Shown one piece after another: positions 35,912 through 60,487 of a stretch of 64,000 nucleotides of DNA; position 1 is the stretch's first letter, and each line of letters begins with the position of its first letter. Source of the stretch: Mucilaginibacter aquatilis. Its GTDB lineage: Bacteria > Bacteroidota > Bacteroidia > Sphingobacteriales > Sphingobacteriaceae. The position numbers were made by a program, and so were the translations under genes. The stretch lies in the NCBI RefSeq assembly GCF_009755275.1, contig NZ_WQLA01000007.1, positions 62,001-126,000 on the forward strand, written 5' to 3'. The notes below the pieces were generated by a model, which saw nothing but the letters and a program-made list of their open reading frames with translations, made no database searches and was not told where the DNA came from.

Positions 35912-35932
35912 TTAACTATCAAAATATATAAA

Positions 35933-39681: not shown

Positions 39682-39697
39682 TATTAGAACGAGATAC

Positions 39698-39719: not shown

Positions 39720-39727
39720 ATCAATAT

Positions 39728-40627
39728 TTAGTTGACAATTGTAATATCCATTTCCTTAACTACCTCTTTAGCACCCTTCAACCTTACATTTGAAGCAACA
39801 AACACTACATGATAGTTTCCGGGTGTATTGAATGTATAAGGGTAGCTGTCCAAGCGGGCATCAACAGATTTTACACCTGTACCCCTATCGGGGTTTATGG
39901 CATTTGGATACAACACTTTTGTAATTATCCAATCTTCATTTTCGGGTGTATTGATGTTACCGCCGCCAATAGTAAGCGCCGTTGCTGATGCATTCCATTT
40001 ATAAGTTGGGTTAAGCACATCTACTGCAGCCCAGCCGGCATTAGCCAAAGTAGCCACGTTGAAAGTGCTGTTATCAGTAGTTTGGTAATCAACACTAAAC
40101 GACCGTATAGTCCAGGCGCGCGGCTTAAGTAACGCGCTGTTTTCATCGCGCTTTTTGAAAGCAAAATATACAGGCTTACCGTTAGGTGCAACGTCTGATA
40201 CATCAATTACGCCCGAAGCCACATTGTCGGCACCGGTTGATAAAACAGCTCTTGATGTGATGTCTGTCCAGGTAGCTGCCTTTATACCATCAACATTGTA
40301 GGCTCCTTTAAAGTCATTTGATGCTAAAACGGTTAAGGAGTTAAGTTGCGCGCCGCTGTTTTGTGCAAAGCTTGAAAACTGCAGCGTTGCCTTACCTTCA
40401 ACACTGTTTCGGTTCCTGTTTTCATATTTGCGGTTTGCTTCGCCCGAGTAAAACGTAATAACATCGGGGTTGCCGTTGAATGAAAAGATTACAGGTTGCC
40501 CGGCCTTGAAATTAGAGGCTGAGGACACCGAAACATCAAAATCCGGCGTAGAGGCATCCTCCTTAGTACATGCGGTAAATAACCCCACTAACAGCAGCAA
40601 CGGCAGAATATTTTTTATAATTTTCAT
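39728..40627 (-). CDS. DUF5017-type surface lipoprotein
   Basis: 299-residue lipoprotein (LVGLFTACTKED, lipid Cys20) with the layout of DUF5017 proteins found after SusD in PULs. An N-terminal PKD/Ig-like strand domain (DFDVSVSSASNFKAGQPVIF, then SFNGNPDVITFYSGE) is followed by a beta-sandwich ending in YPYTFNTPGNYHVVFVASN. It has no catalytic motif. By position it is a surface glycan-binding protein analogous to SusE/SusF. It begins 18 bp after susD. Confidence 0.82.
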   Translation of the reverse strand: MKIIKNILPLLLLVGLFTACTKEDASTPDFDVSVSSASNFKAGQPVIFSFNGNPDVITFYSGEANRKYENRNRNSVEGKATLQFSSFAQNSGAQLNSLTVLASNDFKGAYNVDGIKAATWTDITSRAVLSTGADNVASGVIDVSDVAPNGKPVYFAFKKRDENSALLKPRAWTIRSFSVDYQTTDNSTFNVATLANAGWAAVDVLNPTYKWNASATALTIGGGNINTPENEDWIITKVLYPNAINPDRGTGVKSVDARLDSYPYTFNTPGNYHVVFVASNVRLKGAKEVVKEMDITIVN

Positions 40628-40645: not shown

Positions 40646-42259
40646 TTACCAGCCTTGGTTTTGTTTTATTGCCTTATTCAATGAAATTTCGCGGCTTGGA
40701 ATTGGGTAAAACAAGTGACGATCCTGTATATTATCACCTATAATAGCCGTGAACTTGCGGTTAGCCGGTGCATTTAATTTAATGTCGGCTGCAAACTCTT
40801 TTAAGGTTGACTGTAGCAAGCCCCAACGCTTCAAATCATGATTTCGCAAACACTCAAACGCTAATTCGCGCATACGTTCGGCATTGATGGCATTAAAAAA
40901 GGTGGTTTTATCAAGTCCGGTTAAATCGGCTTCGGTTACGTTAGTTGCTCCTGCTTTAAGCTTTCCATACGCACGACGGCGTACCTGGTTCAGCGCATTT
41001 AACGCGGCAACTGTAGGGCCGTTAATTTCGTTTTCAGCTTCCGCAAACATCAGCAGTACATCTGAGTAGCGCAGTAACGGAAAGTTCACACCACTATAAT
41101 TTTTATTTCGTGGCAAATTAGTCTCTAAATCACGGCGCCATTTACCCGGAAAACGATCATACGTAGCCGTAACAGCTAAAAATGTTTTGGTTTTGGTGGC
41201 ATCATTCCAAGTGTAAGGAGATACTACCCAATCGCGACGTTCATCAGGCGAAAATTCAACTTTTGTGGTTGCATTAATACGAGATTCGTATGATTTATAA
41301 AGCTTGGACGTAGCATATAAAAATGCATAGCCATAACCCGGAAAGTCGATATTGTTAGAGGCGATGCCATTCCGGTTGCCCACATAGCCTACCTCATTGT
41401 AAGCATCGGCTTTAACACCGTAAAACTCAACTTCCCACATACTTTCTTTTACGTCATATTTATCCTGGCAATGATTAATAAACACCTGCGAATAATCAGC
41501 ATTTAGTTGATTGAAGCCCATATCAATTACTTTTTTCGACCACTTAAGCGCGTCGGCATACCGTGCTTTATCATTAACCGGAGAACCTGCCATAGTTAAG
41601 TAAACACGTGCCAGTATACCCGCTGCCGTATTCTTAGAAACGCGGCCTCCCGAATTTGGCCCCCATTGCTCTGCCGTGGGCAGCAGGGCTTCTGCTGTTT
41701 CCATATCCTTTACTACCTGTTTGTAAACATCGGCCACCGGGGTTGCTGGCAAATCAACGTCCTCAGCACTTTGAGCTGCGGTTAGGCGCAGTGGCACTCC
41801 GCCCCAATTATCTGCCAAGACGAAGTAATAATAGGCTCGCAAAAACAGTGCTTGTGCCAGTATAACATCCCGTGTTGCTGTAGCTACAGCCGTGGCTTTA
41901 TCAATGTTATCCAGCAGTAAGTTGGCTCGGCCAATGCCGGTGTAAGCAGCAGTCCACAAATTGTTGATGTTGGCTTCAGAGGGGTCATAATTATAAACCA
42001 TTGGCCCCGTTACCTGGCCAGATGCGCGCCAAACACCTTCATCGTTACCATAAGAAAGATAAGTAAGCAAGCCGTTGGCATACATCGACTCCAAGCCCAA
42101 AGGATCGTAAACACCATTTAAGGCATTGTTTAATTGCCCCTCGGTTTGGTAATAATTAACCGGGCTTATAAAATCTTTGGGTATTGTATTTAACTGCTTA
42201 TTGCAACCCAAGGTGCAAAAAGCAGCTATTATAAATGTGAATGATAAATTTCTTTTCAT
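40646..42259 (-). CDS. SusD-family surface glycan-binding lipoprotein (PUL 2)
   Basis: 537 residues from the ATG at 42259 (MKRNLSFTFIIAAFCTLGCNKQ, lipid Cys19). Contains the SusD/RagB helical repeat region (AQALFLRAYYYFVLADNWGG, VPLRLT) and the C-terminal LNQVRRRAYGK, RMRELAFECLRNHDLKRWG and YPIPSREISLNKAIKQNQGW. It pairs with the SusC 12 bp upstream to capture and import an oligosaccharide. The extended frame to 42268 starts with TTG and is not preferred. Confidence 0.95.
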   Translation of the reverse strand: MKRNLSFTFIIAAFCTLGCNKQLNTIPKDFISPVNYYQTEGQLNNALNGVYDPLGLESMYANGLLTYLSYGNDEGVWRASGQVTGPMVYNYDPSEANINNLWTAAYTGIGRANLLLDNIDKATAVATATRDVILAQALFLRAYYYFVLADNWGGVPLRLTAAQSAEDVDLPATPVADVYKQVVKDMETAEALLPTAEQWGPNSGGRVSKNTAAGILARVYLTMAGSPVNDKARYADALKWSKKVIDMGFNQLNADYSQVFINHCQDKYDVKESMWEVEFYGVKADAYNEVGYVGNRNGIASNNIDFPGYGYAFLYATSKLYKSYESRINATTKVEFSPDERRDWVVSPYTWNDATKTKTFLAVTATYDRFPGKWRRDLETNLPRNKNYSGVNFPLLRYSDVLLMFAEAENEINGPTVAALNALNQVRRRAYGKLKAGATNVTEADLTGLDKTTFFNAINAERMRELAFECLRNHDLKRWGLLQSTLKEFAADIKLNAPANRKFTAIIGDNIQDRHLFYPIPSREISLNKAIKQNQGW

Positions 42260-42271
42260 GGGAAACAATTG

Positions 42272-45200
42272 TTAGAGGGAAAGGCTTAAACCAAATACTA
42301 CTGTTTTTGCACGGGGATATGCCGCAAAATCGAACCCAGGCGTAAGCGCCGAATTTTTAGTGGACACTTCAGGATCCAGGCCACTGTAATTAGTAAACGT
42401 TAACAGATTTTGTGCAGAGGCATAAACTCTAACGCTGCGCATTTTGGTTTTTTTAAGCCACTTGGCGGGTAGTGTATAGCCTAAAGCAACTGTTTTTACC
42501 CTTATGTAAGATGCATCTTCAATTATGCGCGATGAATACGCTGTGGGCCCGTATCCTTTAGTACGAAAGTATTCATTGTTTGGGTTTTCGGGAGTCCATC
42601 TATCGGCATAACTGGCAAACTGATTAAGGCTTAACCGGTTAGTACCTTCAAAAACCAGGCGATTAGCATTTAAGGCATCATTACCGAAAGACCATTGGAG
42701 GAAAACATTGAGGTCGAAACCTTTATAGGTAAAGTTATTTGAAAAACCACCAATAAAATCAGGGTTTGGATTACCTATTACCATGCGGTCGGAAGCATTC
42801 ACCGTACCATCTCCATTGATATCTTCATACTTGATATCGCCCGGCTGTACAGCGGTGCGGCCGCTACCGTTGTCTGGCACGGTTGATTTAAGTACATAAC
42901 GTCCATCGGGCTGCTGATCAAAGTCACTGTACTGGTAATTGCCAAGCCATTTGTAGCCATAAAGCAGCCCAATTGGATTTCCTATTTTTGCTATGTAAGC
43001 GGGAATGTTGTTATAACCGGTTTCCCAGGCTAACGCTGTACCAATACTTTCCTGATTGCGGGTTAACTCCAAAACCTTGTTACGGTTAAAAGTTATGTTA
43101 AAGGACGAGTTCCATTGAAAATCTTTTTTAGCAATGTTAACTGTACTCAATTCAAACTCCCAGCCGGTATTACTTACCTTACCAATATTTTGGAAGCCGC
43201 TTTGATAACCCGTTGATACAGGTAACTGGGCGTTTAGTAGTAAGTCGTAGGTATTCTTATTATAATAATCTACCGTGAGGTTTATACGGCTGCTAAATAA
43301 AGATATGTCAACACCTGCATCAATTTGACGGGTTGTTTCCCATTTCAAATTTTTATTGCCAAGGCTTGTTGGTATAGCCCCAGTATAATAACCATTTTCG
43401 AAAGTATAGTTACCGGAGATAGGAAAGGTAATTGTAGGTAGGTATGCAAAATCTGACACACGATTATTGCCTGTTACACCTATACTGGTACGTAGTTTGG
43501 CACTGCTCAGAAACTGATACTTCTTCAAAAATTTTTCATCGCTTATGCGCCATGCAAATGCACCCGACGGAAAATAGCTCCAGTGGTTATCGCTTGCAAA
43601 TTTCGATGAACCATCGGCACGTATTGATGCCGTTAAAAGGTATTTGGATTTATAACTGTAATTAACGCGGCTTAAGTAAGATACTAACAGGTTATTGGTT
43701 TTGGCTGAAGTGGCGTTCACCAGCACCCCTTCTTCAAGTCCGCTTACACCCAGGCTTTCATTGGGTAACCTGTTTGACTGGTAACCAAATGTTTGGTTAT
43801 CCTGCTTTTGCATGGTAAACCCTGCCAGCGCTGTAATGGTATGAGCTTTGTTTATTGTCTTTTTATAAGTTAGTGTATTTTCGTTCAGGTAATCGTTACG
43901 CTCAAAATTATATAAGCGGCCATTGGCGCCATTTGAACCTTGTGCGCTGCGCGGGTCGCCGTATTTGGTTAGCGTATTATAAAAAATTTCCTGCTTTCTT
44001 GCTTCGCGGGTTACACCGCCGCTTATTCTTAAAGTCAAATCTTTAAATAAAGGTATTTGAGCGTAAGCATTGGCTATCAGGGTATTGTTGTATAACAAGT
44101 TAACCTCGTTTTGGGCAGATAGGATTGGGTTGTAGCGGTAATCGCCAGTGCCGTCTACTCCCGGGTCGAGCGGAAGTTCGAGCAGGTCTTCATTAGGTAG
44201 CACGCCGCCTATAATTGGACGGTAACCCCATACACTGTAAAGTAAGCTTAATGAGTTGCTGGTGCCATTGTAAGTTGACGGTGTTGCACCATTGGTTTTG
44301 GTATTTGAGAAATTTACGTTTACCCCAACCTTAATATTATTTTTCAACGTCTGATCTAACGACAGACGTCCCTGGTATCTTTTAAAACCTGAGTTGATAA
44401 TCACACCATCCTGGCCTAACACCGAGCCTGAAAAGGAATACAAGGTTTGATTGTTGCCACCACGCATAGCAAAATTATGACTTTGCATAGGTGCGGTTCT
44501 GAACACCTGCTTTTGCCAGTCAATTCCCTGTACATTGCGGTAACTATCCAATGTTGTACCATCAGGTGTATACACACCGGTATAGCTAACAGGATCAAGC
44601 TCCAACTGGTACCTAACAAATTCATATGGACTCATTAGCTTGGCTTCCTTAATTGTGTTTTGAAAACCGTAGTATCCATCGTAAGTAATTACAGGTGCGC
44701 CCGTTTTACCTTTTTTAGTGGTAATAATAATTACACCGTTTGCACCCCTCGCGCCATAAATGGCAGTAGCCGACGCATCCTTTAATACCTCTAACGATTC
44801 TATTTCTGATGGGTTGATAACGTTATTGTTAGGATTTTCTATCGGGAAACCATCAATAACATATAGCGGCGAATTATCCTGAGTAATGGAGCTATTACCA
44901 CGTATAACAATATTACTGGCGTTACCGGGCTGCCCTTCGGGCGAACTTACCTGTACACCCGCCACTCGTCCAGCCAAGGCCTCTTCAAATGACCTCACCG
45001 GCGCTTTTTGAAGGTCTTCTACCTTCACCTGGCTTACTGAACCTGTTAAATCGCCTTTGCGAACGGTACCATAGCCAATTACTACTACATCGTTAAGTGC
45101 ATTATTCTGTTCTTCCAGGGTAACCCTTATTAGTGTGCGTTTATTCACAGGTTCTTCATGTGAATTGAAACCAACATATGTAAACACTAATGTTGCTTCC

Positions 45201-45406
45201 CCCGAAGGCACAACAATTGTATAGTTACCCTGCGCATTGCTAACCGTACTTTTTTGCAGGTTCTTAATTTTAATGTTTACTCCTGGTAAGGGCTCTCCTT
45301 TCCTGTCAGTAATGGTGCCTTTTACAGTAATGCTAGTTTGGCCAAATGCTGTAATACAACAGAGCATTAGAACAAGCAATAAATTAAAGCGTAATTGTTT
45401 TTCCAT
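42272..45406 (-). CDS. SusC-family TonB-dependent outer-membrane transporter (PUL 2)
   Basis: 1044 residues from the ATG at 45406. Signal peptide (LLLVLMLCCITAFGQ), carboxypeptidase-D-like domain (about 25-105; VKGTITDRKGEPLPGVNIKI), TonB-box-like DVVVIGYGTVRKGD, plug (LYVIDGFPIENPNNNVI; EVLKDASATAIYGARGANGV) and barrel ending in KTVVFGLSLSL. Unlike the SusC at 30.5 kb it has no STN domain, so it does not signal through an anti-sigma factor; control fits the HTCS regulator instead. First gene of SusC-SusD-DUF5017-SGNH; the candidate HTCS site at 45630 lies about 220 bp upstream. Confidence 0.95.
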   Translation of the reverse strand: MEKQLRFNLLLVLMLCCITAFGQTSITVKGTITDRKGEPLPGVNIKIKNLQKSTVSNAQGNYTIVVPSGEATLVFTYVGFNSHEEPVNKRTLIRVTLEEQNNALNDVVVIGYGTVRKGDLTGSVSQVKVEDLQKAPVRSFEEALAGRVAGVQVSSPEGQPGNASNIVIRGNSSITQDNSPLYVIDGFPIENPNNNVINPSEIESLEVLKDASATAIYGARGANGVIIITTKKGKTGAPVITYDGYYGFQNTIKEAKLMSPYEFVRYQLELDPVSYTGVYTPDGTTLDSYRNVQGIDWQKQVFRTAPMQSHNFAMRGGNNQTLYSFSGSVLGQDGVIINSGFKRYQGRLSLDQTLKNNIKVGVNVNFSNTKTNGATPSTYNGTSNSLSLLYSVWGYRPIIGGVLPNEDLLELPLDPGVDGTGDYRYNPILSAQNEVNLLYNNTLIANAYAQIPLFKDLTLRISGGVTREARKQEIFYNTLTKYGDPRSAQGSNGANGRLYNFERNDYLNENTLTYKKTINKAHTITALAGFTMQKQDNQTFGYQSNRLPNESLGVSGLEEGVLVNATSAKTNNLLVSYLSRVNYSYKSKYLLTASIRADGSSKFASDNHWSYFPSGAFAWRISDEKFLKKYQFLSSAKLRTSIGVTGNNRVSDFAYLPTITFPISGNYTFENGYYTGAIPTSLGNKNLKWETTRQIDAGVDISLFSSRINLTVDYYNKNTYDLLLNAQLPVSTGYQSGFQNIGKVSNTGWEFELSTVNIAKKDFQWNSSFNITFNRNKVLELTRNQESIGTALAWETGYNNIPAYIAKIGNPIGLLYGYKWLGNYQYSDFDQQPDGRYVLKSTVPDNGSGRTAVQPGDIKYEDINGDGTVNASDRMVIGNPNPDFIGGFSNNFTYKGFDLNVFLQWSFGNDALNANRLVFEGTNRLSLNQFASYADRWTPENPNNEYFRTKGYGPTAYSSRIIEDASYIRVKTVALGYTLPAKWLKKTKMRSVRVYASAQNLLTFTNYSGLDPEVSTKNSALTPGFDFAAYPRAKTVVFGLSLSL

Positions 45407-45596
45407 ATACGCCAAGTTAAATAGATGATAAATTAGGCTTTACAGTTAAACCTTGGTAAAGGCTGCAAGGCAATGCATTTTGCAAAACAAGAGCATGAGT
45501 TACTCTTTGCACGTAACAATTCTTCAACATAAATTAAATAGGTTCTAAAAGGTTAGAATAATTGGTTAAAAACGCAGTGGCGTTGTGAGTACTAAG

Positions 45597-45614
45597 GTGA
45601 GCTTATAAGCTTAC
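45597..45614. repeat. Palindrome GTGAGCTTATAAGCTTAC
   Basis: Perfect 12-bp core AGCTTATAAGCT with wobble-tolerant flanks, 183 bp upstream of susC and 16 bp from the candidate HTCS site. Its function is unknown; it may be part of the promoter-operator region or a weak terminator for the upstream SASA gene. Confidence 0.4.
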
Positions 45615-45629
45615 TTAACGGTATTGTTG

Positions 45630-45657
45630 ATGTTGCAATTGATAACGCAAATGTCTC
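45630..45657. promoter_or_regulatory. Candidate HTCS operator, copy A (upstream of susC)
   Basis: ATGTTGCA, 10 bp, CAAATGTCTC. The half-sites ATGTTGCA (45630) and ATGTCTCA (45651) are 21 bp apart in direct orientation. The same element with identical spacing recurs at 51774 and 58045. Confidence 0.55.
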
Positions 45658-45693
45658 AAACACTATTTAAGCACCATCAGCGCACTTTATTTA

Positions 45694-47676
45694 TCAAAAT
45701 TCGGTAAACTTATCAGTGCGGAATGGTACTGCGGGCAACCCTTGTTTATTATAAAAGTTTATTTTAGCTGGACTGCTCTCAAATGCATAACGCACATGCA
45801 ATGGTTTACTTACCTGAGGACAGCTTACCACAACCCGGTTGCCCTCAACTTTAGCTTCTGCCCGGTAAAACTTATTATCGTTACCACAAATAGCAAAGCC
45901 TTCAAGTTGGCTACCACCGCCTTTCACCTGTATCCCGCCATCAACATTATCAAAAGTAAGTACCATACTGCTTTGCTGTGTACTTACTGATTTTAAGACA
46001 GACCCCCGAGCAACTTCGCCTGCATAGCCATACGCTTTTTCTAGCGCAACCAGCGCCAGCCGCCTGCCTACCTCCTGTTTGTTTGTGGGATGCACATCTA
46101 ACGCGTTACCTACGTCGTTGGTTATAGCAATACCGCTGTTTGCTACAGTGTTGCTAACCTTGGTTTGCGCCTCTTGTACAACCGCCCACGGTGAGGCCTT
46201 GGGTTGAACGTTTACTGGCCCGTAATTAGCTATTTGTACCATATAGAATGGCAACGTAACATCTTTGAATGACTTTCTCCATGAGTTAATGAGGCTGTTT
46301 AATAAAGCCTCATATTCAAAGCATGATTTCATAGTTGCATTAGCTTCGCCCTGGTACCACAAGCATCCCTTTACCGCATAATTAAAAAATGGATGTATAA
46401 TAGCATTATAAGCTAATACAGGATAGCCATGTTCAAAATCAAGAGTTACAACCGGGCCAAGAGCTCCTGCTTTATCAAATACTTTACCTTGCTTATAAAG
46501 CCATTCGCCACTTAAAACTATGGTTTGAGTGCCAATAGTTATTTGCTGTTTAGCTATAGGCCTGAAGCCAGTTTTATCGCTATCGTTGTAACCGCATACA
46601 AGCACTTCATTCTTACCTTCCTTTAATAACCCGGCAGGCAGTTTAAACTTGGCATTATAATAAGGATTAGGTTGTATGCCTATATATACTCCATTAACAT
46701 AGGTAAAACTTGCAAAATTAATACGCCCTAGATCAATGGTTGCCATAGAAGATGGAGTTCCTGCTATGGTAAATTCCTTTTTATACCAGCTGATACCTTT
46801 TTTTACCGCAATACCCTGATCATCAATAAAGCCAGGAATATTTACCACCTTCCAGCTATCATCAGTATTAAAAAACTCCGCTTTGCGATTAAGATCGCGT
46901 TTTGCATCAATGTATTCGGCTGCATCAGCAAAATTTTGCTCCCACTGCTTTATCATGTCAGTATGGGCTTGCTTTGTGGCTTGTATAAAACCTGGTTTTA
47001 TGCTTTGTACTTTGGCAGAAGCCGAAGGAAAATCCTTTAATGCCTCGGGGCTCATAAAGGTTTCAATAGGCGAGCCTCCCCATGATGCATTAATTAAGCC
47101 AATAGGTACTTTCGTTGCTTTGTAAACGTTTTTTGCAAACTGAAATGCAACTGCCGAAAAATTATCAACGGTTTGCGGACTGGCAACCAGCCAGTTTGAT
47201 TTGAGCACATCTTTTTGTGGCTCTTCGGCACCTATCAATGGAACATTAAATGTCCTTATCAGCGGGTAATTGGCATCTGCCAGCTCTTTGTCGTGGTCCA
47301 TTATTTGCCTCATGCGGAAGTTCATGTTACTTTGACCACCGCAAAACCAAACGTCTCCAAAATAAACATCGTTTAAACCAAGACTATCTGCCCCTGATTG
47401 CGCTGTTATTGTGTAAGGCCCGCCTTCTTTCATTATAGGGAGCATTACCGTCCATAGGCTATCGTTACCCGCACGGGTATTAAATTGCCGCCCATTAAAC
47501 TTTATGGCAACGTTTTTACCCGGCTCCGTCCAACCCCAAAACTTAACCGGCTTATTGCGCTGCAATATCATATGATGGGTATAGTAATGCGGCAAACGGA
47601 GCTGGCCAAAGCTTGTTAAGCAGTTAAAGCTAAGCAGTAGTGCAATATACCAGCGAACATGTTTTATAGCTGTCAT
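45694..47676 (-). CDS. Sialate O-acetylesterase (SASA)-family carbohydrate esterase
   Basis: Secreted acetylesterase (660 aa) of the 9-O-acetyl-sialate esterase family, whose Bacteroidota members also de-acetylate xylan and other plant glycans. Signal peptide ends LTSFGQ. The first catalytic half has WFCGGQSNMNFRM (nucleophile Ser) and INASWGGSPIETFMS. A jelly-roll insertion (about 270-400; SWYKKEFTI, VNGVYIG) separates it from the second half with WYQGEANAT and the late DVGNALDVHPTNKQEVGRR (catalytic Asp/His). The start ATG overlaps the GH3 stop (TAATG), so translation is coupled. Together with GH3 and the beta-helix protein it forms an operon. Confidence 0.9.
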   Translation of the reverse strand: MTAIKHVRWYIALLLSFNCLTSFGQLRLPHYYTHHMILQRNKPVKFWGWTEPGKNVAIKFNGRQFNTRAGNDSLWTVMLPIMKEGGPYTITAQSGADSLGLNDVYFGDVWFCGGQSNMNFRMRQIMDHDKELADANYPLIRTFNVPLIGAEEPQKDVLKSNWLVASPQTVDNFSAVAFQFAKNVYKATKVPIGLINASWGGSPIETFMSPEALKDFPSASAKVQSIKPGFIQATKQAHTDMIKQWEQNFADAAEYIDAKRDLNRKAEFFNTDDSWKVVNIPGFIDDQGIAVKKGISWYKKEFTIAGTPSSMATIDLGRINFASFTYVNGVYIGIQPNPYYNAKFKLPAGLLKEGKNEVLVCGYNDSDKTGFRPIAKQQITIGTQTIVLSGEWLYKQGKVFDKAGALGPVVTLDFEHGYPVLAYNAIIHPFFNYAVKGCLWYQGEANATMKSCFEYEALLNSLINSWRKSFKDVTLPFYMVQIANYGPVNVQPKASPWAVVQEAQTKVSNTVANSGIAITNDVGNALDVHPTNKQEVGRRLALVALEKAYGYAGEVARGSVLKSVSTQQSSMVLTFDNVDGGIQVKGGGSQLEGFAICGNDNKFYRAEAKVEGNRVVVSCPQVSKPLHVRYAFESSPAKINFYNKQGLPAVPFRTDKFTEF

Positions 47677-49397
47677 TATTCAATAGTACTATATTTTTTA
47701 AAAGCGTTGTTTTGCAAATTAACCGGCGATGTTCCGTTGGCTTTGGCCTCACCCGTTAAAACTTTAATTACCGCATTATGCATCTCTTCGTTATTGCTGT
47801 AAGCATTTATACAGGTGTTGACCCGTTCAAAATATTCATTTAAAATGTATGGGCTTCCAAACGAAATTACGATAACCTTTGATTTAGGCATAGCATTAAC
47901 CGCCCAGGCCGATTGTGCCTCATCATCATACAACTGCAACGGACCAAAGGGGGTATGCGGCTGCCTCACCACGGCAAAAATAACTTTATCATATTGCTTT
48001 GATACCTGCTCATCCCAACCCTGATTTTCATAGAGCAGGTTGTGTTGAAAATCAACATGGTAGCCCTTTTGCCCAAGCTGGGTTGCAAAGTTCTTTAATA
48101 CGGCCAAACCACCATCCCCGCCCTTACGGCTTTGCGGTACAACACCTACCACTAATATTTTTTTAACGTTCTTGCTAAGCGGTAGAGATTTGTCCCGATC
48201 GCGTACTAAAGTTACTGCTGCAGCACAAATACTATCTGATGTTGCCCGTGCGAATGCCTTATCACCTATACTCATAGGTTTAATAAGTTGGCGTTTAGCT
48301 GTTGCAGCATTGTATCTTACCTTCATTGCCCATATACGGCTTACGGCATCATCCAATCGCGACATTGGTATTTCATTGCGCTTTATACGGGCTTCTAATG
48401 TATCCATAAAGGAATATGAAGGCCACAGCAGTACGTCAACCCCGGCTTTAAAGCTCGCTATTTCGCCTTCAAGCTGATTAGGGAACCATCCCCTGAAACC
48501 TCCCATGGTCATGGCGTCTGATATAATTACGCCTTTAAAATGCATTTCATTTTTCAACAAACCAGTTAGCAATTCATGCGAGAGCGTTGCCGGAGGCAAA
48601 AAGCCGTTTAACTTTTGTTTTTGATAAGCTGGTAAGGTAATATGGCCCGGCATAATAGCCGCAACGCCACTATCAATAAGCGCTTGAAACACTTTACCAT
48701 GGTAACGGTACCACTCACTCATGGTTAGTGAATTTGTTGTGGTTGTAAGATGCTGATCGCGGTAATCAACCCCGTCTCCCGGAAAATGCTTGATTGTGGC
48801 AGCTACGCCGTTATATTGCAAACCTTTAACCTGACGGCTTAATAACCTAATGGCCCTATCCGGATCGTCGGAAATACCGCGCACATTGACTATTGGATTT
48901 AAGGGATTTAAGTTTAAGTCGGCCATGGGATGCAGCACCCACTGTATGCCAACCGAGCGCGATTCCATGGCAAGCGTTTTACCATAATTATAAGTAAGCT
49001 GCGGAGAATTAGCCGCCCCTATAGCCATTTCATAAGGCATACCGGTCATTCCAGGCAAGGCAACGCCATGCTCATAATCTTGCTGAAAAATTAACGGTTG
49101 CGTACTTGCTTGCTGATAAGCTGTAGCGGCTTGCTTTATAAAGCTGATTTTGTCTTTTGTATCTACGCCCTGAAACAATTTCCATCCCATAAAGAAACCG
49201 GTTACCGGGTAACGTTTAAAAAAACCTGGCAAACTGCCGTTACCTAACTGCAACTCCATTTTTCTGTCGGGCAGCATAATCATGGTTTGACCTATCTTTT
49301 CTCTTAAGGTAAGCTTTTTCCAACCATCAACACTGGCAACCTGCGCGCGCAGGCTCACGCCCGACAGCAGTATTGCAGCCAAGATTTTGTATTTCAT
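47676..49397 (-). CDS. GH3 beta-N-acetylhexosaminidase-like (NagZ-type) glycosidase
   Basis: Secreted family 3 glycosidase (573 aa, signal peptide MKYKILAAILLSGVSLRAQ). Order: (beta/alpha)8 barrel (about 20-370) then a Rossmann-like domain. The barrel loop KHFPGDGVDYRDQH carries the Asp-x-His dyad characteristic of NagZ-type GH3 enzymes, where the His serves as acid/base. The nucleophile Asp is in VIISDAMTMGG (near 294). N-acetyl-beta-glucosaminidase activity is therefore more likely than plain beta-glucosidase or xylosidase; GH3 specificity is hard to call without biochemistry. It starts 21 bp after the beta-helix gene and overlaps SASA by one base. Confidence 0.88.
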   Translation of the reverse strand: MKYKILAAILLSGVSLRAQVASVDGWKKLTLREKIGQTMIMLPDRKMELQLGNGSLPGFFKRYPVTGFFMGWKLFQGVDTKDKISFIKQAATAYQQASTQPLIFQQDYEHGVALPGMTGMPYEMAIGAANSPQLTYNYGKTLAMESRSVGIQWVLHPMADLNLNPLNPIVNVRGISDDPDRAIRLLSRQVKGLQYNGVAATIKHFPGDGVDYRDQHLTTTTNSLTMSEWYRYHGKVFQALIDSGVAAIMPGHITLPAYQKQKLNGFLPPATLSHELLTGLLKNEMHFKGVIISDAMTMGGFRGWFPNQLEGEIASFKAGVDVLLWPSYSFMDTLEARIKRNEIPMSRLDDAVSRIWAMKVRYNAATAKRQLIKPMSIGDKAFARATSDSICAAAVTLVRDRDKSLPLSKNVKKILVVGVVPQSRKGGDGGLAVLKNFATQLGQKGYHVDFQHNLLYENQGWDEQVSKQYDKVIFAVVRQPHTPFGPLQLYDDEAQSAWAVNAMPKSKVIVISFGSPYILNEYFERVNTCINAYSNNEEMHNAVIKVLTGEAKANGTSPVNLQNNAFKKYSTIE

Positions 49398-49418
49398 TAT
49401 GTGTAGTGAGTAATTTAG

Positions 49419-51710
49419 TTAATCTACAAACTGATCTTCGTTCCATGCATCGCCAGCCTTGGCTCTGTTCACCAAGCCTCCGGTTTCCTTTCGGGTAGGT
49501 ACACGTAACCTGTATTGGTCTTTAATGAGTCCCATAGATACAAACACCTTATTTAAGTTAGGGAACGTGCGTAATATGGCCTTGCTGCCCGTTCGCAGAT
49601 CCATGCCGGGGTAATTGCGAAATAAGGCATCTTTAACTAAAGGCAAACGGGCATTGTTTGTTATGGTAACATCACCGTGCTCGGGTTTTGTGAATGGACC
49701 ACTCTCAATGGCAATGTTATCAATCATGGCACATCCATTAGGCAAATCGGGGCGCCAGGCAGGGTTTAACACGTCGCTCCACAAGGAATGCCGCAGGCCA
49801 TATTGCTTTTGGATAATTTTGCCGTATGATTTCCATGGTTCCTTAAACGGCTCCATGTCTTGCAACCGCTCTTCATAAGCTGTACCAAGTTTATAGTTAC
49901 GGCTTGTGCCCCTGTCATCTATAACCTGATTTTTAGTTTTTATAAATACATTGTTATGTGCAATATTATCATGTCCGCCTCCAAACTTTATGGCATCAAT
50001 GGCATCATGTACAATGTTATTGTAAAACATGTCGCCGCTATCGCCATCATCACAGTAGAAGCCGTTTGAGCGATTTACATGGTGAACAAAATTGTATCTG
50101 AAAATATTGCCATAAGTAGACCATCCTCCGTAATTGTAAAACGCTCCGTTATCAGCCTCTTTTAAGGCAATGTTATGTACCTCGTTATACTCAAACACAC
50201 AGTTGTTTATCAAATCGGTGCGTACTGCGCTTTTGGGCACATCATGTATAAGATTATGAGCAATGGTTAATCCCACACACTCTCTTAACTGAATTGCCTC
50301 CTTAAAAGATATACGCGCAATATGATGGATATGATTGTTGATTAACTTGCTACGGGTAGCTATCAGTTTTTTGCGATTACCTGTTGTTTGCACTTCAATG
50401 CCGCTGCCACCTGTATCAAATATATTATTGCTTTGGATTGTAACATCATCTCCTCCATTCACCCAAATACCCGTATTACCAACATTACTGATATTGCAGC
50501 CTGCAATTTTTATATGGTGTGAATTGGTTATTTCAAAACCATTACTTAGCGTACCACTAACATTGATGCTTTGAAACTGAATATTTGATGCGCCCCTAAG
50601 CGTAAGTAAAGGTTTGTCTGAATCAGCTATGCTCACCTGCATCTTGTTCAATGGTGCAGGTGGATAGTAATATATCTTGTTGTCTTTAACATCTAAGGCC
50701 CATTCACCTGACGTGTCAATTTCTTCAAGAAGGTTTAGGGCCATCCATTTTTCTTTGCCATTGCCTACTCGCCATAAAGGGCTTTGGTTAGCAATTTCAG
50801 AATATTTTGACCCCATGCCTCCTGGCGGCTCTTCGATAAAGCTGATGGTGTGCTGTTGCACGTCGAGCTTTTTTACCTTGGAAGTATAAGGACCCCATGG
50901 CACTCGCCAAAACCCTTTAAGCCACAAATCATGGCCATTGGCCATCATGGCGCTCCATCGTTCTGACCGGTTGGTGCGATCAAGGTCAACCTCGTTCACC
51001 TCGTCCTTATCCTCTGGCTTGCCGCCGTTTGCATAGTAAAATGTGTAATTATCCTTGGCCCCGTTGCAGGTTACCCAACCGGCATCATTAATGTTTCTGA
51101 TGCTTTCATTTTGGTTAGGCCATTGTGATAAAGGTTGACGCTTGTTACTAGCAAACAGATCGATAATATACCATTTGTCTTCAAACTGATTTACCGGCGC
51201 AAACTGCTTTACATGTGATAAATTAAGTCCTGTTAAATCGAGTTCCTTAATATCAGCGGCATTAGTTTTGGGATGAACCCGCTTTAGCGCATCGGCACTT
51301 AAAGGTTTCCATTTATCACCACTGATACTTATTAGTCCGGATAGGGTAACCTCCTCGTTAGGATAACCACGGTAAATTACAGGCTGATGCGGTGTGCCCG
51401 AGTCCTCCTCATTAAACATGAGGGGTTCGGTTAATGAATAGGTTCCGCCCATGATCCATATTACCACACCATGCTTGCTTTTAACAATTTGGCGTGCTGC
51501 TTTCTGGGCTTTACCCAAAGTTGCAAAAGGAGCCTTTAAGGTTCCCGCCCACGCATCGTTGCCGGCTTTGGAGACGTAAAGATTAACCGTCTGGCTTTTT
51601 TTCGCAGCAGGTTGAGCAATGGTCTTTTCAGAAAGACAAAGCAAACACAATACTGTGATGAGGTTTAGGTTTAGCGTTAGTTTATAACCAAACGGTGTAA
51701 TACTATTCAT
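49419..51710 (-). CDS. Secreted right-handed beta-helix protein, GH141/GH120-like
   Basis: 763 residues from the ATG at 51710, with a signal peptide (about 1-33). The N-terminal region NLYVSKAGNDAWAGTLKAPF, then YRGYPNEEVTLSG is the pattern seen in beta-helix CAZymes such as GH141 and GH120. A classical Asn/Gly-rich right-handed beta-helix follows (about 370-620; NVGNTGIWVNGGDDVTIQ, DTGGSGIEV). No unambiguous catalytic residue can be named. Its first place in an operon with GH3 and SASA supports a glycan-cleaving role. Candidate HTCS site B lies 64 bp upstream. A paralogue occurs at 58134. Confidence 0.82.
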   Translation of the reverse strand: MNSITPFGYKLTLNLNLITVLCLLCLSEKTIAQPAAKKSQTVNLYVSKAGNDAWAGTLKAPFATLGKAQKAARQIVKSKHGVVIWIMGGTYSLTEPLMFNEEDSGTPHQPVIYRGYPNEEVTLSGLISISGDKWKPLSADALKRVHPKTNAADIKELDLTGLNLSHVKQFAPVNQFEDKWYIIDLFASNKRQPLSQWPNQNESIRNINDAGWVTCNGAKDNYTFYYANGGKPEDKDEVNEVDLDRTNRSERWSAMMANGHDLWLKGFWRVPWGPYTSKVKKLDVQQHTISFIEEPPGGMGSKYSEIANQSPLWRVGNGKEKWMALNLLEEIDTSGEWALDVKDNKIYYYPPAPLNKMQVSIADSDKPLLTLRGASNIQFQSINVSGTLSNGFEITNSHHIKIAGCNISNVGNTGIWVNGGDDVTIQSNNIFDTGGSGIEVQTTGNRKKLIATRSKLINNHIHHIARISFKEAIQLRECVGLTIAHNLIHDVPKSAVRTDLINNCVFEYNEVHNIALKEADNGAFYNYGGWSTYGNIFRYNFVHHVNRSNGFYCDDGDSGDMFYNNIVHDAIDAIKFGGGHDNIAHNNVFIKTKNQVIDDRGTSRNYKLGTAYEERLQDMEPFKEPWKSYGKIIQKQYGLRHSLWSDVLNPAWRPDLPNGCAMIDNIAIESGPFTKPEHGDVTITNNARLPLVKDALFRNYPGMDLRTGSKAILRTFPNLNKVFVSMGLIKDQYRLRVPTRKETGGLVNRAKAGDAWNEDQFVD

Positions 51711-51773
51711 CAAAAAAATGGTTGTAATTGGTGATGTAAATAACCGCTTTTTAAATGGCCGCTAATGATGTGA

Positions 51774-51801
51774 ATGTTGCATAATATGATGGCAATGTCT
51801 C
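51774..51801. promoter_or_regulatory. Candidate HTCS operator, copy B (upstream of the beta-helix-GH3-SASA operon)
   Basis: ATGTTGCA, 10 bp, GCAATGTCTC; half-sites at 51774 and 51795 (21 bp apart). It lies in the 117-bp gap between the HTCS gene's stop and the beta-helix gene. Confidence 0.55.
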
Positions 51802-51827
51802 AAAAAGCAAACTAAGGCAATGTTAAT

Positions 51828-54800
51828 TCAATTTGCATTCTCTATTATGCTGTTTAAATACTCAGACGGCGTTTTGCCAAACTGTTTTTTAAACGAGGCA
51901 GTAAACGATGAAGGATTTTTAAATCCAACCTCATATGATATTTGCGATACATTAAGCTTGCGTTGTAATAGCAACTCGGCCGCATGTTTTAACCGTATAC
52001 TACTAATTACCTCAAGCGGGTTTTGACCGGTAATGGCCTTGAGTTTTCTAAACAAATGGCTGCGGCTCATACAAACAATGTTGCCTAAATCTTCTACGCC
52101 AAACTCATCATTACTCATATTAGCCTGCACCGCTGCAATTACTTTATTTAAAAACTCTTCATCAAGCGGGTTCTTGGTAATGTTTTTTGGCACCATCACT
52201 CCATCAGATTGGTATTTGGCAATCAGCCTTTTTTGCGATTCAATCAAATTGCTTACTCTAGTTTTCAGCAATTCGGGGTGGAAAGGCTTAGCTATATATT
52301 CGTCGGCACCGGTTCGAAAACCTTCAATCCGATGTTGCACTTCGGCTTTAGCGGTAAGTAAAACAACCGGAATATGGCTGGTTGCTACATTTTGCTTTAT
52401 GTTTAAGCACAACTCCACGCCGTCCATTTCGGGCATCATAACATCACTCAAAATAAGCGCTGGTTCACGGCTTTCAATTATACCTAAAGCAAGTTTGCCG
52501 TTTTCTGCTTTTAATACCTCGTAGCTATTAACAAATAATTTTTCGAGGTACTCCAGCACATCAGGGTTGTCTTCTACTATCAGCAGCACCTCTTTATGAA
52601 TATCAGGTTTTAAATCCTGAGCCTGATCAACATCCGTCAGTCCGCCTGCAATTGATGTGTTGAAGTCATATTCGGGCTGATAAGCTGATTGCGGTACAAT
52701 TAAGCCGGCTTGGTTTACATAAGCATTATTAACGGGCAACAAAATTGTAAAGGTGGTTTTGACGCCTGGGTCACTTTCTGCCACCACTATGCCCTGATGA
52801 AGCTCGACCAAACTTTTGGTTAACGAAAGACCAACGCCGGTACCTTTAATATGAGTATCGGAAAAGAAACGCTCGAACAAGTGCTTAAACTCTTCGTTAC
52901 TTATTCCCTTTCCGTTATCTTCAACGGTAATGGAAATCCATTTACTTACCTTTGCCTGCACTTGTTGCTTTAGCTGGCTCGATGCAAGCTCCGCTACCTT
53001 GACAGCTACCTTCCCCCCTGCAGGCGCAAACTTAAATGCATTAATGAGTAAATTATTGATGGCCATTTCTATTTTGCCTGGATCAAAATCAATAATGAAA
53101 TTACTCACCTCACTCTCTATAAAAAAATGAACACTGCTCTTTTCAGCAAGCGGTTCAAAATTTTGACATATTTCTTTGACAAAATCAACCACATCAACAT
53201 CCCGCTTATGCAACTTAAGCATGCCCTGTTCCATTTTTTGGAACGTCATCAACTCGTCGACCAAATACAGCAGTTTTTTACAGTTTCGGTACACCATTTG
53301 CATTTTTTGACGCAAAGGACTATTTAAGTCATCTGAAGAAAGCATTTCATCAACCGGACCTATAATTAAAGATAGCGGCGTTCTGAACTCATGTGATACG
53401 TTGGTAAAAAACTCAACCTTCATTTGGTTAAGTTTTCTCAACTGATCTTTCTCCAGTTTTTCAAAGTGTAAAAGGCTGCGATGACGGCTTTGTGCAAGTA
53501 AGTATTTTACAAATACATACAGCATAACATTGAATATGATGATATATAGCACAATTGCCCACCATGTTTTCCATGGCGGCGGCAAAATAGTTACTTTAAG
53601 CCTTATAGGATTATTACTCCATTTACCTGCATAGTTTGCAGCTTTAACCTTAAACCAATAAGTACCGTGGTTAAGGTTGGTATATGTGGCACTACGGTTA
53701 TCGGCTCCAACGTTTATCCATTCCTTATCAAACCCCTCCATTTTATAAGCGTATGCATTTAGCTCGGGGTTTGAAAAGTGCAAGGCTGTAAAGCCTATAG
53801 TAAATACATTGTTATGATAGTTTAGGGTTATTGCCCGCGTGTTGGTAATAGGCTTGGTTAAAATAACCTGATCATTCAGCGTATCATTAACGTTAACCGT
53901 TTTGTTAAACAGTTTTAATTCGGTTAAATGCAATCGAGGCGTAGCCGTGTTGCTGTTTACCAGTAACGGATTGAAGCTTAAAAAGCCATCATCGGTACCA
54001 AACAAGAATTGTGATTTACTTACGCGGCAACTACTTACGGCGCTAAAATCAATACCCGAAATAATATTATTAAACTGTTTTGTTTTGAGATTAAATTTTA
54101 CTAATCCTTTAATAGTGGCTATCCACAAGTTGCCGGCATCATCGGCAAGTAAACCGTTAATTGATTTATCAGGCAAGCCATCACTTTCGAAATAGGTTTT
54201 TACCTCCTTCACTATAGGACCCGGCTCATTGCCCGATAACTGGATTTGATTAAGGCCCGACTCAGACCCGGCCCAGATAACATTATGCGGGTACTCAACG
54301 ATCGACAAAAAGTTGCTGCCATACACTTTAGTGCCATGTCCGTCAGATTCAACAGTGGTAAACTTTGCGGTAACCGGATTTATGTATCCAACCTTTCCGT
54401 TTTCAAAGCCAAGCCATATCCTGCCTGCATGATCTTCATAAACAGTTCGTAAAAAGCCTGATCGTAGAAGCTGATGTGCCGAAGGTTGCTCTGCGAAGTT
54501 AATTTGCTTACCCAATTCATTAATGTAAATAACACCCGAGTTTGTACCAATCCAGGTGTTTGCTTTACTATCTTTAAGTACCGCAAATACTGCTTTACCT
54601 TGCAGCACCTGCGTTAAGCTGTTTGTATTGTTGACACTGAATTTGGTTAACCCGGCTAGGCTGCCCGCCCAAACTTGGTTATTTATTATACTTAACGAAC
54701 GGTTATTACGATAGGCGTTTGTTGTACCTGCCGGTGCTTTAGTGAGGGTATTGTTAACCAAGTTATACTTGTACACGCCGGTATTTGAGGTACCAAACCA

Positions 54801-55961
54801 TACATCATTACCATTAGTTGAAAACAAGCCTCTTACCCTATCTTTAATGTTTTTATTAGTAAAAGTGTAGTACTGTAAGGGTAGTAAGTTTAAATCAACC
54901 TTGTTAAGGCCGGCCTCTGTACCACACCATAACACGGCGTTCCTATCAACCATTACCTTATACACAATATTGCTGCTAATGCTTTTATTGCTTATGGCAT
55001 TATGCCGGTAAATGGTAAGCCTAGCATTGGGCGATGCTATATTTTCTATTTTGGCTAAACCATATTCGGTTGCCAGCCATACATCGCCCAATGGCGATTT
55101 AGTTATATCAAATATTTGGTAATTTTTAAGTCCGGTTGGGCTTTGCTTAAATGTGTTTACATATTCATACGGCATATATCTGCCATCTTCAGCGTTATAA
55201 GGTAATCTGATGAGGCCGTCTCCTCCTGTTCCTATATACAAGTCATTGCCATACAACATCAAACTCCAAAACTTATCGCCGTATGGGTTTGGCTTTACAG
55301 GCATACGATAAAGCTGATGCTGCCCGTTTTTAGTATTGAAACGAACTATTCCATCGCGTGCTGCTATCCAAAGCGAACTATTGCCACCTTCAATAATCTT
55401 TACAATGCCGGTCAAAGAAGCTTGATTAAACTTTTTGTAAGATCCTGTTTGAGGATCAAACGACATTATTCCTTCTGACGTTCCAATCCATAATCGGCCT
55501 GTTGATGCTTCGGCATGTAAAGCATTAATCTGCCTGTTTAAAAAAGGGTAAGCTTGCTTTTTATTGACCGGATAATTGGTGAACCGTTCCGTTTGTAGAT
55601 TAAAGCAACTCAAACCCGCTTCTGTGCCAAACCATAAGTTGCCTCTTTTATCTTCGCATATGGCATGAGCCCAATTACCCGATATACTGCTTAGCCTGTT
55701 GTTTTTGTAATACTTTATAAAGTTATAACCATCAAACTTACATAAGCCGTTCATGGTACCTACCCACAAAAAGCCTTTACTGTCTTGAAATAAATTCCTG
55801 ATGCGAACATCGGGCAGGCCATCATTACTGTTATAAGCCTTAAATACCGGGGTTAAGCTTATGCCGCTGTCGTCATTTGATGTGTAGGTTGATTGCCCGG
55901 CATTAACCGTTGCAATGCCATACAATATTGCCGCAGTGAATGAGAGCAGGTACTTAAGCAT
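51828..55961 (-). CDS. Hybrid two-component system regulator (HTCS), one-protein sensor/kinase/AraC regulator
   Basis: 1377-residue inner-membrane sensor-regulator controlling a PUL. Order: signal or first TM (1-22); periplasmic Reg_prop beta-propeller repeats (about 35-700; motifs such as GFLWVGTMNGLCKFDG and DRNAVLWCGTEAGLNKVD); Y_Y_Y domain (about 735-815; NAYAYKMEGFDKEWI); TM (about 818-842); HisKA with phospho-His in NVSHEFRTPLSLIIGP (near 857); HATPase; receiver with Asp near 1173 (LILSDVMMPEMDG); and C-terminal AraC-type HTH (VSQISYEVGFKNPSSFTASF). All catalytic sites appear intact. It lies inside the PUL and is the natural candidate to bind the three repeated 28-bp elements. Confidence 0.96.
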   Translation of the reverse strand: MLKYLLSFTAAILYGIATVNAGQSTYTSNDDSGISLTPVFKAYNSNDGLPDVRIRNLFQDSKGFLWVGTMNGLCKFDGYNFIKYYKNNRLSSISGNWAHAICEDKRGNLWFGTEAGLSCFNLQTERFTNYPVNKKQAYPFLNRQINALHAEASTGRLWIGTSEGIMSFDPQTGSYKKFNQASLTGIVKIIEGGNSSLWIAARDGIVRFNTKNGQHQLYRMPVKPNPYGDKFWSLMLYGNDLYIGTGGDGLIRLPYNAEDGRYMPYEYVNTFKQSPTGLKNYQIFDITKSPLGDVWLATEYGLAKIENIASPNARLTIYRHNAISNKSISSNIVYKVMVDRNAVLWCGTEAGLNKVDLNLLPLQYYTFTNKNIKDRVRGLFSTNGNDVWFGTSNTGVYKYNLVNNTLTKAPAGTTNAYRNNRSLSIINNQVWAGSLAGLTKFSVNNTNSLTQVLQGKAVFAVLKDSKANTWIGTNSGVIYINELGKQINFAEQPSAHQLLRSGFLRTVYEDHAGRIWLGFENGKVGYINPVTAKFTTVESDGHGTKVYGSNFLSIVEYPHNVIWAGSESGLNQIQLSGNEPGPIVKEVKTYFESDGLPDKSINGLLADDAGNLWIATIKGLVKFNLKTKQFNNIISGIDFSAVSSCRVSKSQFLFGTDDGFLSFNPLLVNSNTATPRLHLTELKLFNKTVNVNDTLNDQVILTKPITNTRAITLNYHNNVFTIGFTALHFSNPELNAYAYKMEGFDKEWINVGADNRSATYTNLNHGTYWFKVKAANYAGKWSNNPIRLKVTILPPPWKTWWAIVLYIIIFNVMLYVFVKYLLAQSRHRSLLHFEKLEKDQLRKLNQMKVEFFTNVSHEFRTPLSLIIGPVDEMLSSDDLNSPLRQKMQMVYRNCKKLLYLVDELMTFQKMEQGMLKLHKRDVDVVDFVKEICQNFEPLAEKSSVHFFIESEVSNFIIDFDPGKIEMAINNLLINAFKFAPAGGKVAVKVAELASSQLKQQVQAKVSKWISITVEDNGKGISNEEFKHLFERFFSDTHIKGTGVGLSLTKSLVELHQGIVVAESDPGVKTTFTILLPVNNAYVNQAGLIVPQSAYQPEYDFNTSIAGGLTDVDQAQDLKPDIHKEVLLIVEDNPDVLEYLEKLFVNSYEVLKAENGKLALGIIESREPALILSDVMMPEMDGVELCLNIKQNVATSHIPVVLLTAKAEVQHRIEGFRTGADEYIAKPFHPELLKTRVSNLIESQKRLIAKYQSDGVMVPKNITKNPLDEEFLNKVIAAVQANMSNDEFGVEDLGNIVCMSRSHLFRKLKAITGQNPLEVISSIRLKHAAELLLQRKLNVSQISYEVGFKNPSSFTASFKKQFGKTPSEYLNSIIENAN

Positions 55962-55978
55962 AAACGTTTACATTGGTT

Positions 55979-56014
55979 TTAACAGCACTCAATTATTGAA
56001 ATAAGGGCTGTTAA
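55979..56014. repeat. Inverted repeat upstream of the HTCS gene
   Basis: TTAACAGC (55979-55986) and GCTGTTAA (56007-56014) separated by 20 bp, 18-53 bp before the HTCS ATG. It is a possible operator for control of the HTCS gene itself, unlike the direct-repeat elements of the target operons. Confidence 0.35.
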
Positions 56015-56126
56015 TTTTGAAGTAACTATAATAGATATAATATAGCACATATAATAACAATTATCATGAAGCAGTAAGTAACAGCCAGTACTAACCAGCT
56101 TTTGACTTGTTTTGTGAGCATAAAGG

Positions 56127-57896
56127 TTAATTGAAGGCAATTTGTCGGTACTTGTTAACTGAAGCCGCCATTCCTAACTCCTTATGGTAAGTTGGAGCTT
56201 TATAAACGAAAGCATACGGCTTGTACAAGGTTGCACACATTGGGTTACTTGCCTTAAGCCTCTGATAGGCAAGCCATAAATCATCATATCTTTTTATAGC
56301 GGCTTTAAGTTTAACTTTATCGTAAGTGGATGTTTTATCGCCTTCAAACCCTATAGCCATTATGTTCCACCCTTGGGCTATTATACTGTACAGCAGGCGC
56401 CCGTAAGTGCTTGACACGCGTATGTACTCTTCATCGCTTTTATTGCGCATTTTTATCTTCTCACTTAAGCTGGCAATGGTATCCCACATACGCGCGGCTT
56501 CAAACTTCTCCTCAACAGCAGCCTTTAGTAGCCCTTTTTGATAATACTCCGTGAATTGCCTGTACAACGTACCTTCAGAATCAAATGCGGTAGAATCCTT
56601 ATTAAGATCAGAACCAGCTAAAAATTCGTCGCGCATCCACCATACCCATTCACTATTAAACGTTGGCATGGCCGAGTCATGCCCCCGAAGCACAGCCTTG
56701 GCTGATAGCAGGCATAGCTGGCGAAAAGCGGATTGTGACGATTGGCTTATACCGTTTTCGATCATAAATTGCTTGAGCACCTGCTCTTCGGTTTGGCTGG
56801 TATTGCCGGCCCAGTGACTAAGTACATAGGCATTCAGCCTGCACCAAAACTCATTGCTAATGTACGGGCCTACCCACCCTCCTCCGCGCGACCACGACCA
56901 TACTCCGGCAAAATTCGGATGATGCTTAATATCATTCAAACTTTTGAATCCTTTTTGCGGCCTTTTACCATTGTATTCCTCAAAGCCATTAATTACGCCA
57001 TTCATTACATAATTAGGGTAAGCACCTTTACCCTCATACTCGCGCTGGCATTGTACTTCTACTACTTGTTTATGCCGGCCCTGCATAAGCGTTGGGTTGA
57101 AGTCAAAGGTGCGGTGATAGTCGCCTTTGGTGTGCTTAACCATAAACACCAAGTTGGGATGGGTACTGATTTGATTTACCACATTAAGATAATATTGCGG
57201 ATCGTCATGCATACCACCAAATGACCAGGTGCGGTAAAAAATCTTTTTGTGCCGCTTAACACATACTTCCTCTCTCAGTAATTTAAGTAACTTAACATGA
57301 CTGGCTTCCCCTTGGGTTATGGGATTGTTGCCGGTGTGATAAGGCACATTATTTAAATACGTTTCACCGGTGCGGATAACCAAACCATCCAAATCAGGAA
57401 AGGTATCAAAGAGTTCGTTAAGCATCAACCGGTGTATTTCAATTGTTTTCGGGCGCTCAAATGAAATCTTGCCGTTTGCATCGCAAATATCATTTCTATA
57501 TAACTCAACCAGTTTTTTGGGCAGCACAATAATATCTGTGAAATAATAAGCCTTCATACCGGCCTTGTGCGCTTTCTGAATATTTGCCTTAACCTTATTT
57601 GCTGCATCGTTAACCCACTTTCGGCCTTTACTGCCAACCGGAAATATATCGGAGTTTAACTTATCAAAAGTGAGGGCCGCATGGGCAAAAGCAAAATCGT
57701 TAAATACTTGGCCGTTGTAGCCGTTTTTTTGCAGGTAAGCAGCGTCGTTGAATGCCGATACGGTAAGCGCCTCGCCCGGGTTGTTATGTACCATATCTAA
57801 TATATACTGGGCTTTAGATGGCTGGGCTGTTGTACGAAGGGTGCAAACCATCCATAAAATGAACAGCAGATATAGCGAAGCTTTTATTTTGAACAC
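56127..57896 (-). CDS. Secreted GH67-like (alpha-glucuronidase-like) putative glycosidase
   Basis: About 589 residues if started at the GTG at 57896, which gives a clean signal peptide (KIKASLYLLFILW, cleavage after TTAQ). The frame continues to another GTG at 57983 with an unlikely N-terminus. The body is a TIM-barrel-like hydrolase whose landmarks resemble GH67: DLDGLVIRTGETYLNN, KIFYRTWSFGG, LVFMVKHTKGDYHR, VVEVQCQREYEGKGAYPNYV and GVWSWSRGGGW. The helical C-terminal half also fits. Candidate acidic residues are the Glu in RTGE and the Glu in QREYEGKG. The assignment rests on these resemblances only; an uncharacterised related family is quite possible. HTCS site C lies 149 bp upstream of the preferred start. 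Confidence 0.6.
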   Translation of the reverse strand: MFKIKASLYLLFILWMVCTLRTTAQPSKAQYILDMVHNNPGEALTVSAFNDAAYLQKNGYNGQVFNDFAFAHAALTFDKLNSDIFPVGSKGRKWVNDAANKVKANIQKAHKAGMKAYYFTDIIVLPKKLVELYRNDICDANGKISFERPKTIEIHRLMLNELFDTFPDLDGLVIRTGETYLNNVPYHTGNNPITQGEASHVKLLKLLREEVCVKRHKKIFYRTWSFGGMHDDPQYYLNVVNQISTHPNLVFMVKHTKGDYHRTFDFNPTLMQGRHKQVVEVQCQREYEGKGAYPNYVMNGVINGFEEYNGKRPQKGFKSLNDIKHHPNFAGVWSWSRGGGWVGPYISNEFWCRLNAYVLSHWAGNTSQTEEQVLKQFMIENGISQSSQSAFRQLCLLSAKAVLRGHDSAMPTFNSEWVWWMRDEFLAGSDLNKDSTAFDSEGTLYRQFTEYYQKGLLKAAVEEKFEAARMWDTIASLSEKIKMRNKSDEEYIRVSSTYGRLLYSIIAQGWNIMAIGFEGDKTSTYDKVKLKAAIKRYDDLWLAYQRLKASNPMCATLYKPYAFVYKAPTYHKELGMAASVNKYRQIAFN

Positions 57897-58044
57897 GGGT
57901 TTATAATTTAGGTATAAAAAGTAAGCCGATACTGCCCGTAAGCGGTATCGGCCATTGCAATCAAACTCAAGTACAACCAACACTTATTTTGATAGGCAGA
58001 GCCTGTGCTAAGGTCGTAACCTATCCCATAATTTACTTACCCGC

Positions 58045-58072
58045 ATGTTGCAGGCGCTAATGCAAATGTTTC
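58045..58072. promoter_or_regulatory. Candidate HTCS operator, copy C (upstream of the GH67-like gene)
   Basis: ATGTTGCA, 10 bp, CAAATGTTTC; half-sites at 58045 and 58066 (21 bp apart), in the gap between the second beta-helix gene and the GH67-like gene. Confidence 0.5.
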
Positions 58073-58133
58073 TAGAATGTGTGTAACAGTGCCCTAAAAC
58101 TCATCTCAGTTGCCTTTGAAGGAACTAACAAGC

Positions 58134-60335: not shown

Positions 60336-60487
60336 AAGTGTGCAATTAGCGTCAAACAGAATACAGCTTGAGGAGTAAAGTAAATGATAATAACATTTAT
60401 AAACCTTACGCCGGTGTTGTATTTATCTATTTAAACAGACCATTTTAACAGTTACACTTATACCAGGCCACCAAAGGGCTAATGTGA

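Follow-up and report, generated by a model that had tools for sequence, protein, structure and literature searches.

A 64,000-nucleotide stretch of the Mucilaginibacter aquatilis genome (the window; positions 62,001 to 126,000 of contig NZ_WQLA01000007.1) contains a polysaccharide utilization locus (PUL) in which copies of a 28-bp direct-repeat element occupy three intergenic gaps 5′ of minus-strand genes. Copy A (positions 45630–45658 of the window) precedes an operon encoding SusC (42272–45415), SusD (40646–42268) and a DUF5017 protein with a GDSL lipase/acylhydrolase (39010–40627). Copy B (51774–51802) precedes an operon encoding a beta-helix protein, here called beta-helix A (49419–51713), a glycoside hydrolase family 3 (GH3) enzyme (47676–49397) and an SASA-type carbohydrate esterase (45694–47676) resembling Protein Data Bank (PDB) entries 9ega, 9h4u and 7kmm. 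Copy C (58045–58073) precedes a gene for a predicted TIM-barrel glycoside hydrolase-like protein (56127–57896; 589 amino acids (aa) from a GTG at 57896 and 618 aa in its longest open reading frame (ORF), referred to here as the 618-aa protein), behind which lies the gene for a 1377-aa hybrid two-component system (HTCS) regulator (51828–55961). All of these features are on the minus strand. We propose that the three elements are probably operators of this HTCS.

All three copies match the pattern ATGTTGCA-N10-SMAATGTYTC with 0 mismatches, beginning at positions 45630, 51774 and 58045, where an earlier note on this DNA had placed them. In gene sense, copies A and B read TGAGACAT-N13-TGCAACAT and copy C reads AGAAACAT-N13-TGCAACAT, and in each copy the half-sites are in direct orientation at an offset of 21 bp. 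The note's description of this arrangement, with variable spacers and with each copy in the gap upstream of a minus-strand PUL unit, was accurate. No further match was found in the window at up to three mismatches (shuffled sequences are expected to give 0.52, and none of 100 shuffles reached 3), and in a matrix scan of the window the three sites scored 27–30 and the next best position 11.7. The whole 4.33-Mb genome was scanned by mismatch pattern searches and yielded no further match at 0–1 mismatch, 3 matches at two mismatches and 28 at three. Because the total of 34 is at the level given by a reversed control pattern (38), we regard the two- and three-mismatch matches as background; 16 of the 17 other genome matches inspected fell inside ORFs. 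The abundance of equally good matches elsewhere that the earlier note had named as grounds for abandoning the proposal did not materialize.

The halves and their 21-bp period are also conserved in loci with an orthologous HTCS, a comparison that the same note had suggested. Copies of the element were found at matching gaps in four other genomes, each with such an HTCS: a Mucilaginibacter metagenome-assembled genome, two Desertivirga species and Pedobacter puniceum. In the first of these, the nearest relative (G310 = L063; HTCS 87% identical), three sites with 0 mismatches occupy the same gaps, and the copy-B halves are the same in both genomes, whereas their spacer has mostly diverged. Desertivirga arenae and D. 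xinjiangensis (HTCS around 50% identical) have sites 5′ of susC and of the beta-helix gene; there is none before their 618-aa gene, as expected from its position inside an operon, close behind another gene. In P. puniceum, sites precede the 618-aa ortholog, immediately 3′ of the HTCS gene, and also susC. Copy A has orthologous sites in both Desertivirga species and P. puniceum, and copy C in P. puniceum. Loci with an ortholog of the 618-aa protein and without an orthologous HTCS (G029, G041, G118, G243 and G031b) contained no comparable site in a matrix scan, and no such sites were seen at the paralogous HTCS locus G031b or at the Mucilaginibacter paralog L080. In four loci left out of the motif definition, searching for ATGTTGCA followed by ATGTYKCA with at most two mismatches, at offsets of 10 to 40, gave 6 matches at offset 21 versus 6 in total at the 30 other offsets.

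Downstream of the operators, in gene sense, the tetramer YTTR occurs at 34±1 nt from the operator end in all 11 aligned sites (the three in the window and eight in Desertivirga and Pedobacter), and none of 2,000 random rotations was as good. The candidate −7 cores in the window, all on the minus strand, are CTTA at 45593–45596 (34–37 nt downstream of operator A), TTTA at 51737–51740 (34–37 nt downstream of operator B) and CTTA at 58009–58012 (33–36 nt downstream of operator C). Nine of the 11 sites read TTTR, the Desertivirga promoters orthologous to that of copy B carry TACATTTG at the same distance, and a Rudanella site outside the 11 (GTGTTGCA-N13-GTGTTGCA, on the other strand) has TTTG at that distance. 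Bacteroidota promoters recognized by sigma-ABfr have TTTG near −33 and TAnnTTTG at −7 (PMC7366714), and YTTR matches the core of that −7 element. Given this fixed distance, the operators would lie at about −70 to −42 relative to the expected transcription start, immediately 5′ of the promoter core and in the position from which an activator contacts RNA polymerase. Adding the −7 core to the search pattern revealed no further regulon members in the genome at 0–1 mismatch. Scans for E. coli-type sigma-70 promoters and for terminators gave fewer hits than shuffled sequences.

Two of the leaders that follow these promoters contain hairpins. In the leader of the 618-aa gene, downstream of operator C (57915–57975, minus strand), a hairpin with a 9-bp stem, GGCCGAUAC...GUAUCGGCU, is followed by a U-run; the surrounding region of around 130 nt is almost identical to G310, with a fold z-score of −2.4 and no Rfam hit, and it is possibly an attenuator or leader element. 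The susC leader (45535–45600, minus strand), conserved in G310, has two hairpins, one of them the short AACGC-CACU-GCGUU with a U-run. An Rfam search of the PUL as a whole gave no hits.

The presumed binder of the operators is the HTCS, a complete regulator in which Reg_prop and Y_Y_Y (sensor), HisKA, HATPase_c, Response_reg and HTH_18 domains all score above the Pfam cut-offs in one chain, the last of them bearing out the earlier expectation that the protein encoded between copies B and C ends in an AraC-type domain. Its close structural relatives in the PDB include 4a2l, an HTCS sensor, and 12aw, a receiver–helix-turn-helix (HTH) structure. Most HTCSs share an S/CHIP-D/K contact motif between receiver and HTH that is tied to phosphorylation-gated DNA binding (PMC11253607); here TSHIP is present at residues 1194–1198 and the D and K fall in LDEEFLNK, in a register judged by eye. 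Genomes that keep the motif encode HTCSs with an invariant second HTH recognition region, NPSSFT; this region is altered in the HTCSs of Rudanella, Larkinella and Spirosoma, genera whose motif is changed, weak or absent.

Together, these results lead us to put at roughly 90% the probability that the three elements are operators of the HTCS encoded in the same PUL, with this PUL as its regulon and an activating, possibly autoregulatory, mode of action. In such a scheme, an oligosaccharide of the target glycan would bind the periplasmic sensor and trigger autophosphorylation of the HTCS, which would lift the inhibition that the receiver domain exerts on its AraC-type domains. An HTCS dimer would then place its two AraC-type domains at the halves TGARACAT and TGCAACAT, which are separated by two turns and so share one face of the DNA. 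The site would end around 33 nt before the −7 core, where a −33 box would otherwise help; the HTCS would therefore recruit RNA polymerase of the sigma-ABfr type. Genes switched on in this way would be those for susCD import, for the esterase, GH3 and beta-helix enzymes and for the 618-aa hydrolase, with the HTCS gene itself perhaps boosted by read-through from copy C.

Several points weigh against this interpretation. Binding of the HTCS to the operators and induction of the genes by glycan are predictions. The footprint spans four genomes of the same family; among more distant HTCS orthologs (Larkinella, Spirosoma, Chitinophaga and Pedobacter sp. MC2016-15) the motif is weak or was not found. 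The matrix used across loci was built partly from ortholog sites, although the sites in related loci, the exact sites in G310 and the spacing test do not depend on it. The CTTA cores of copies A and C are weak matches to TTTG and to TAnnTTTG as a whole, and because the 11 promoters are partly orthologous the rotation test overstates their independence, leaving the −7 evidence strong but not fully independent. Finally, there is no copy directly 5′ of the HTCS gene. The earlier note had said as much, and this part of its statement stands for the adjoining DNA with a qualification: the gene follows the 618-aa gene on the same strand after 165 bp, and its transcription may start at the copy-C promoter.

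The sites could instead be operators of a different regulator, either another HTCS or a one-component AraC protein encoded elsewhere, that co-regulates the PUL. The genome encodes two dozen AraC-type domains, several of them in further HTCS-size proteins. Yet the closest other AraC/HTCS domain in this genome is only 44% identical, the sites are confined to the PUL, and in related genomes they were found solely in loci with the orthologous HTCS, with G029, G041, G118 and G243 lacking both; we consider a different regulator improbable. Slightly less probable still is that the HTCS binds the sites and represses, blocking polymerase near the promoter until the ligand appears. Some HTCSs with a deviating receiver–HTH contact motif do repress (BT2391; PMC11253607), but the present protein carries the consensus SHIP and D/K of phosphorylation-gated HTCSs, and its sites lie upstream of the −7 core and not over it, with −7 cores that are weak. 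That the repeats are chance matches or leftovers of duplicated promoter DNA with no regulator is very improbable: three copies in one locus could come from duplication, and no result favours this, but spacers and flanks differ among the copies (shared flanks were looked for and none was seen), the difference in spacers being what the earlier note had held against simple duplication, the halves alone are kept between species, the 21-bp offset is specific, and when the PUL gaps were shuffled, an 8-mer and a 7-mer shared as a pair by three gaps turned up in only 3 of 2,000 shuffles.

As the earlier note had stated, there is no operator copy upstream of a second beta-helix gene or of the ECF (extracytoplasmic function) sigma factor/FecR/SusCD locus, judging from the matrix scan of the window. 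The gap 5′ of the second beta-helix gene (60336–60487, minus strand) is strongly conserved in G310. The ECF sigma factor/FecR/SusCD locus (28725–36772, plus strand) adjoins the PUL in the opposite orientation and, having no operator copy, is probably controlled separately.

The beta-helix proteins of the PUL, beta-helix A among them, resemble BT_1002, a GH141 enzyme. A search for wider orthologs of beta-helix A in the family and order returned, beyond the loci already known, weak beta-helix similarity. Because of the esterases in the PUL, our guess for the target glycan is an acetylated plant polysaccharide. The 618-aa protein had been labelled GH67-like, a label that we did not retain: it has no sequence relative in Pfam, NCBIfam or the PDB, and the likeness of its model to GH67 is one of fold and distant. 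That model (predicted local distance difference test score (pLDDT) of 69) shows the TIM-barrel alternation of strands and helices with a helical C terminus, and its distant fold matches are GH138, GH67 and GH84, with GH138 ahead of the GH67 structure 1l8n. As there is no family match and the folds are distant, we list it as an unassigned hydrolase-like protein; it possibly represents a TIM-barrel family of glycoside hydrolases that has yet to be described. The protein is well conserved in several genera, at 64–66% identity.

In around 50 other HTCS loci from diverse Bacteroidota, upstream 8-mer direct repeats peak at an offset of 21. With overlaps merged, a repeat together with TAnnTTTG within 18–42 nt was found in 10 regions at offset 21, compared to 0–4 (around 1) at other offsets, which hints at a repeat-plus-promoter grammar in other HTCS loci. 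In paralogous HTCS loci a strict fixed distance was not seen, with TTTG lying 25–43 nt from the repeat end. Loci L067 (9791–9819), L069, L075, L102, L168 and L169 contain direct repeats of 21 bp with a TTTG −7 core behind them, which are candidate operators of the HTCSs there. It is conceivable, with the odds slightly against it, that HTCS promoters share one grammar in which a repeat of 21-bp period stands at a set distance (around 33 nt in the family of the present HTCS) from a TTTG core and the HTCS replaces the −33 box. A rule combining the 21-bp repeat with a fixed −7 distance could help to find the operators of HTCSs in Bacteroidota from soil and plants, and operators so found could connect each HTCS with its PUL.

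An HTCS operator upstream of its own PUL is an ordinary phenomenon, and operators of this kind were already known, since motifs of Bacteroides HTCSs have been predicted as direct repeats with a mean distance of 21 bp, bound by dimers on one face of the DNA (Ravcheev et al. 2013, PMC3878776). At the level of sequence, the peak in the 50 or so loci extends that 2013 rule beyond Bacteroides. As for HTCS_Rgu-1, HTCS_Hep and HTCS_Man in that study, the sites described here have two direct halves around a non-conserved spacer, precede susCD and enzyme operons in the PUL that encodes the HTCS, and fit the same proposed dimer on one face. They differ in their genera (Mucilaginibacter, Desertivirga and Pedobacter), in the half-site TGMRACAT, as compared with the text of the study, and in their fixed distance to a −7 element, for which the portion of that text compared here gives no counterpart. 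The HTCSs of the BT4124 and BT4663 promoters (PMC11253607) likewise have the S/CHIP-D/K contact motif; their phosphorylation-dependent binding to the susCD promoter was shown by electrophoretic mobility shift assay, whereas binding is predicted here for another HTCS and target glycan. As in sigma-ABfr promoters (PMC7366714), a TTTR core lies at a position compatible with −7; unlike in those promoters, there is no conserved −33 box, the operator fills the adjoining upstream DNA, and CTTA replaces TTTG in two of the three promoters of the window. What is added here is the operator sequence and the fixed distance from operator to −7 element, offered together with a proposed regulon for one HTCS in Mucilaginibacter and its relatives, where HTCS operators appear to have been little studied.

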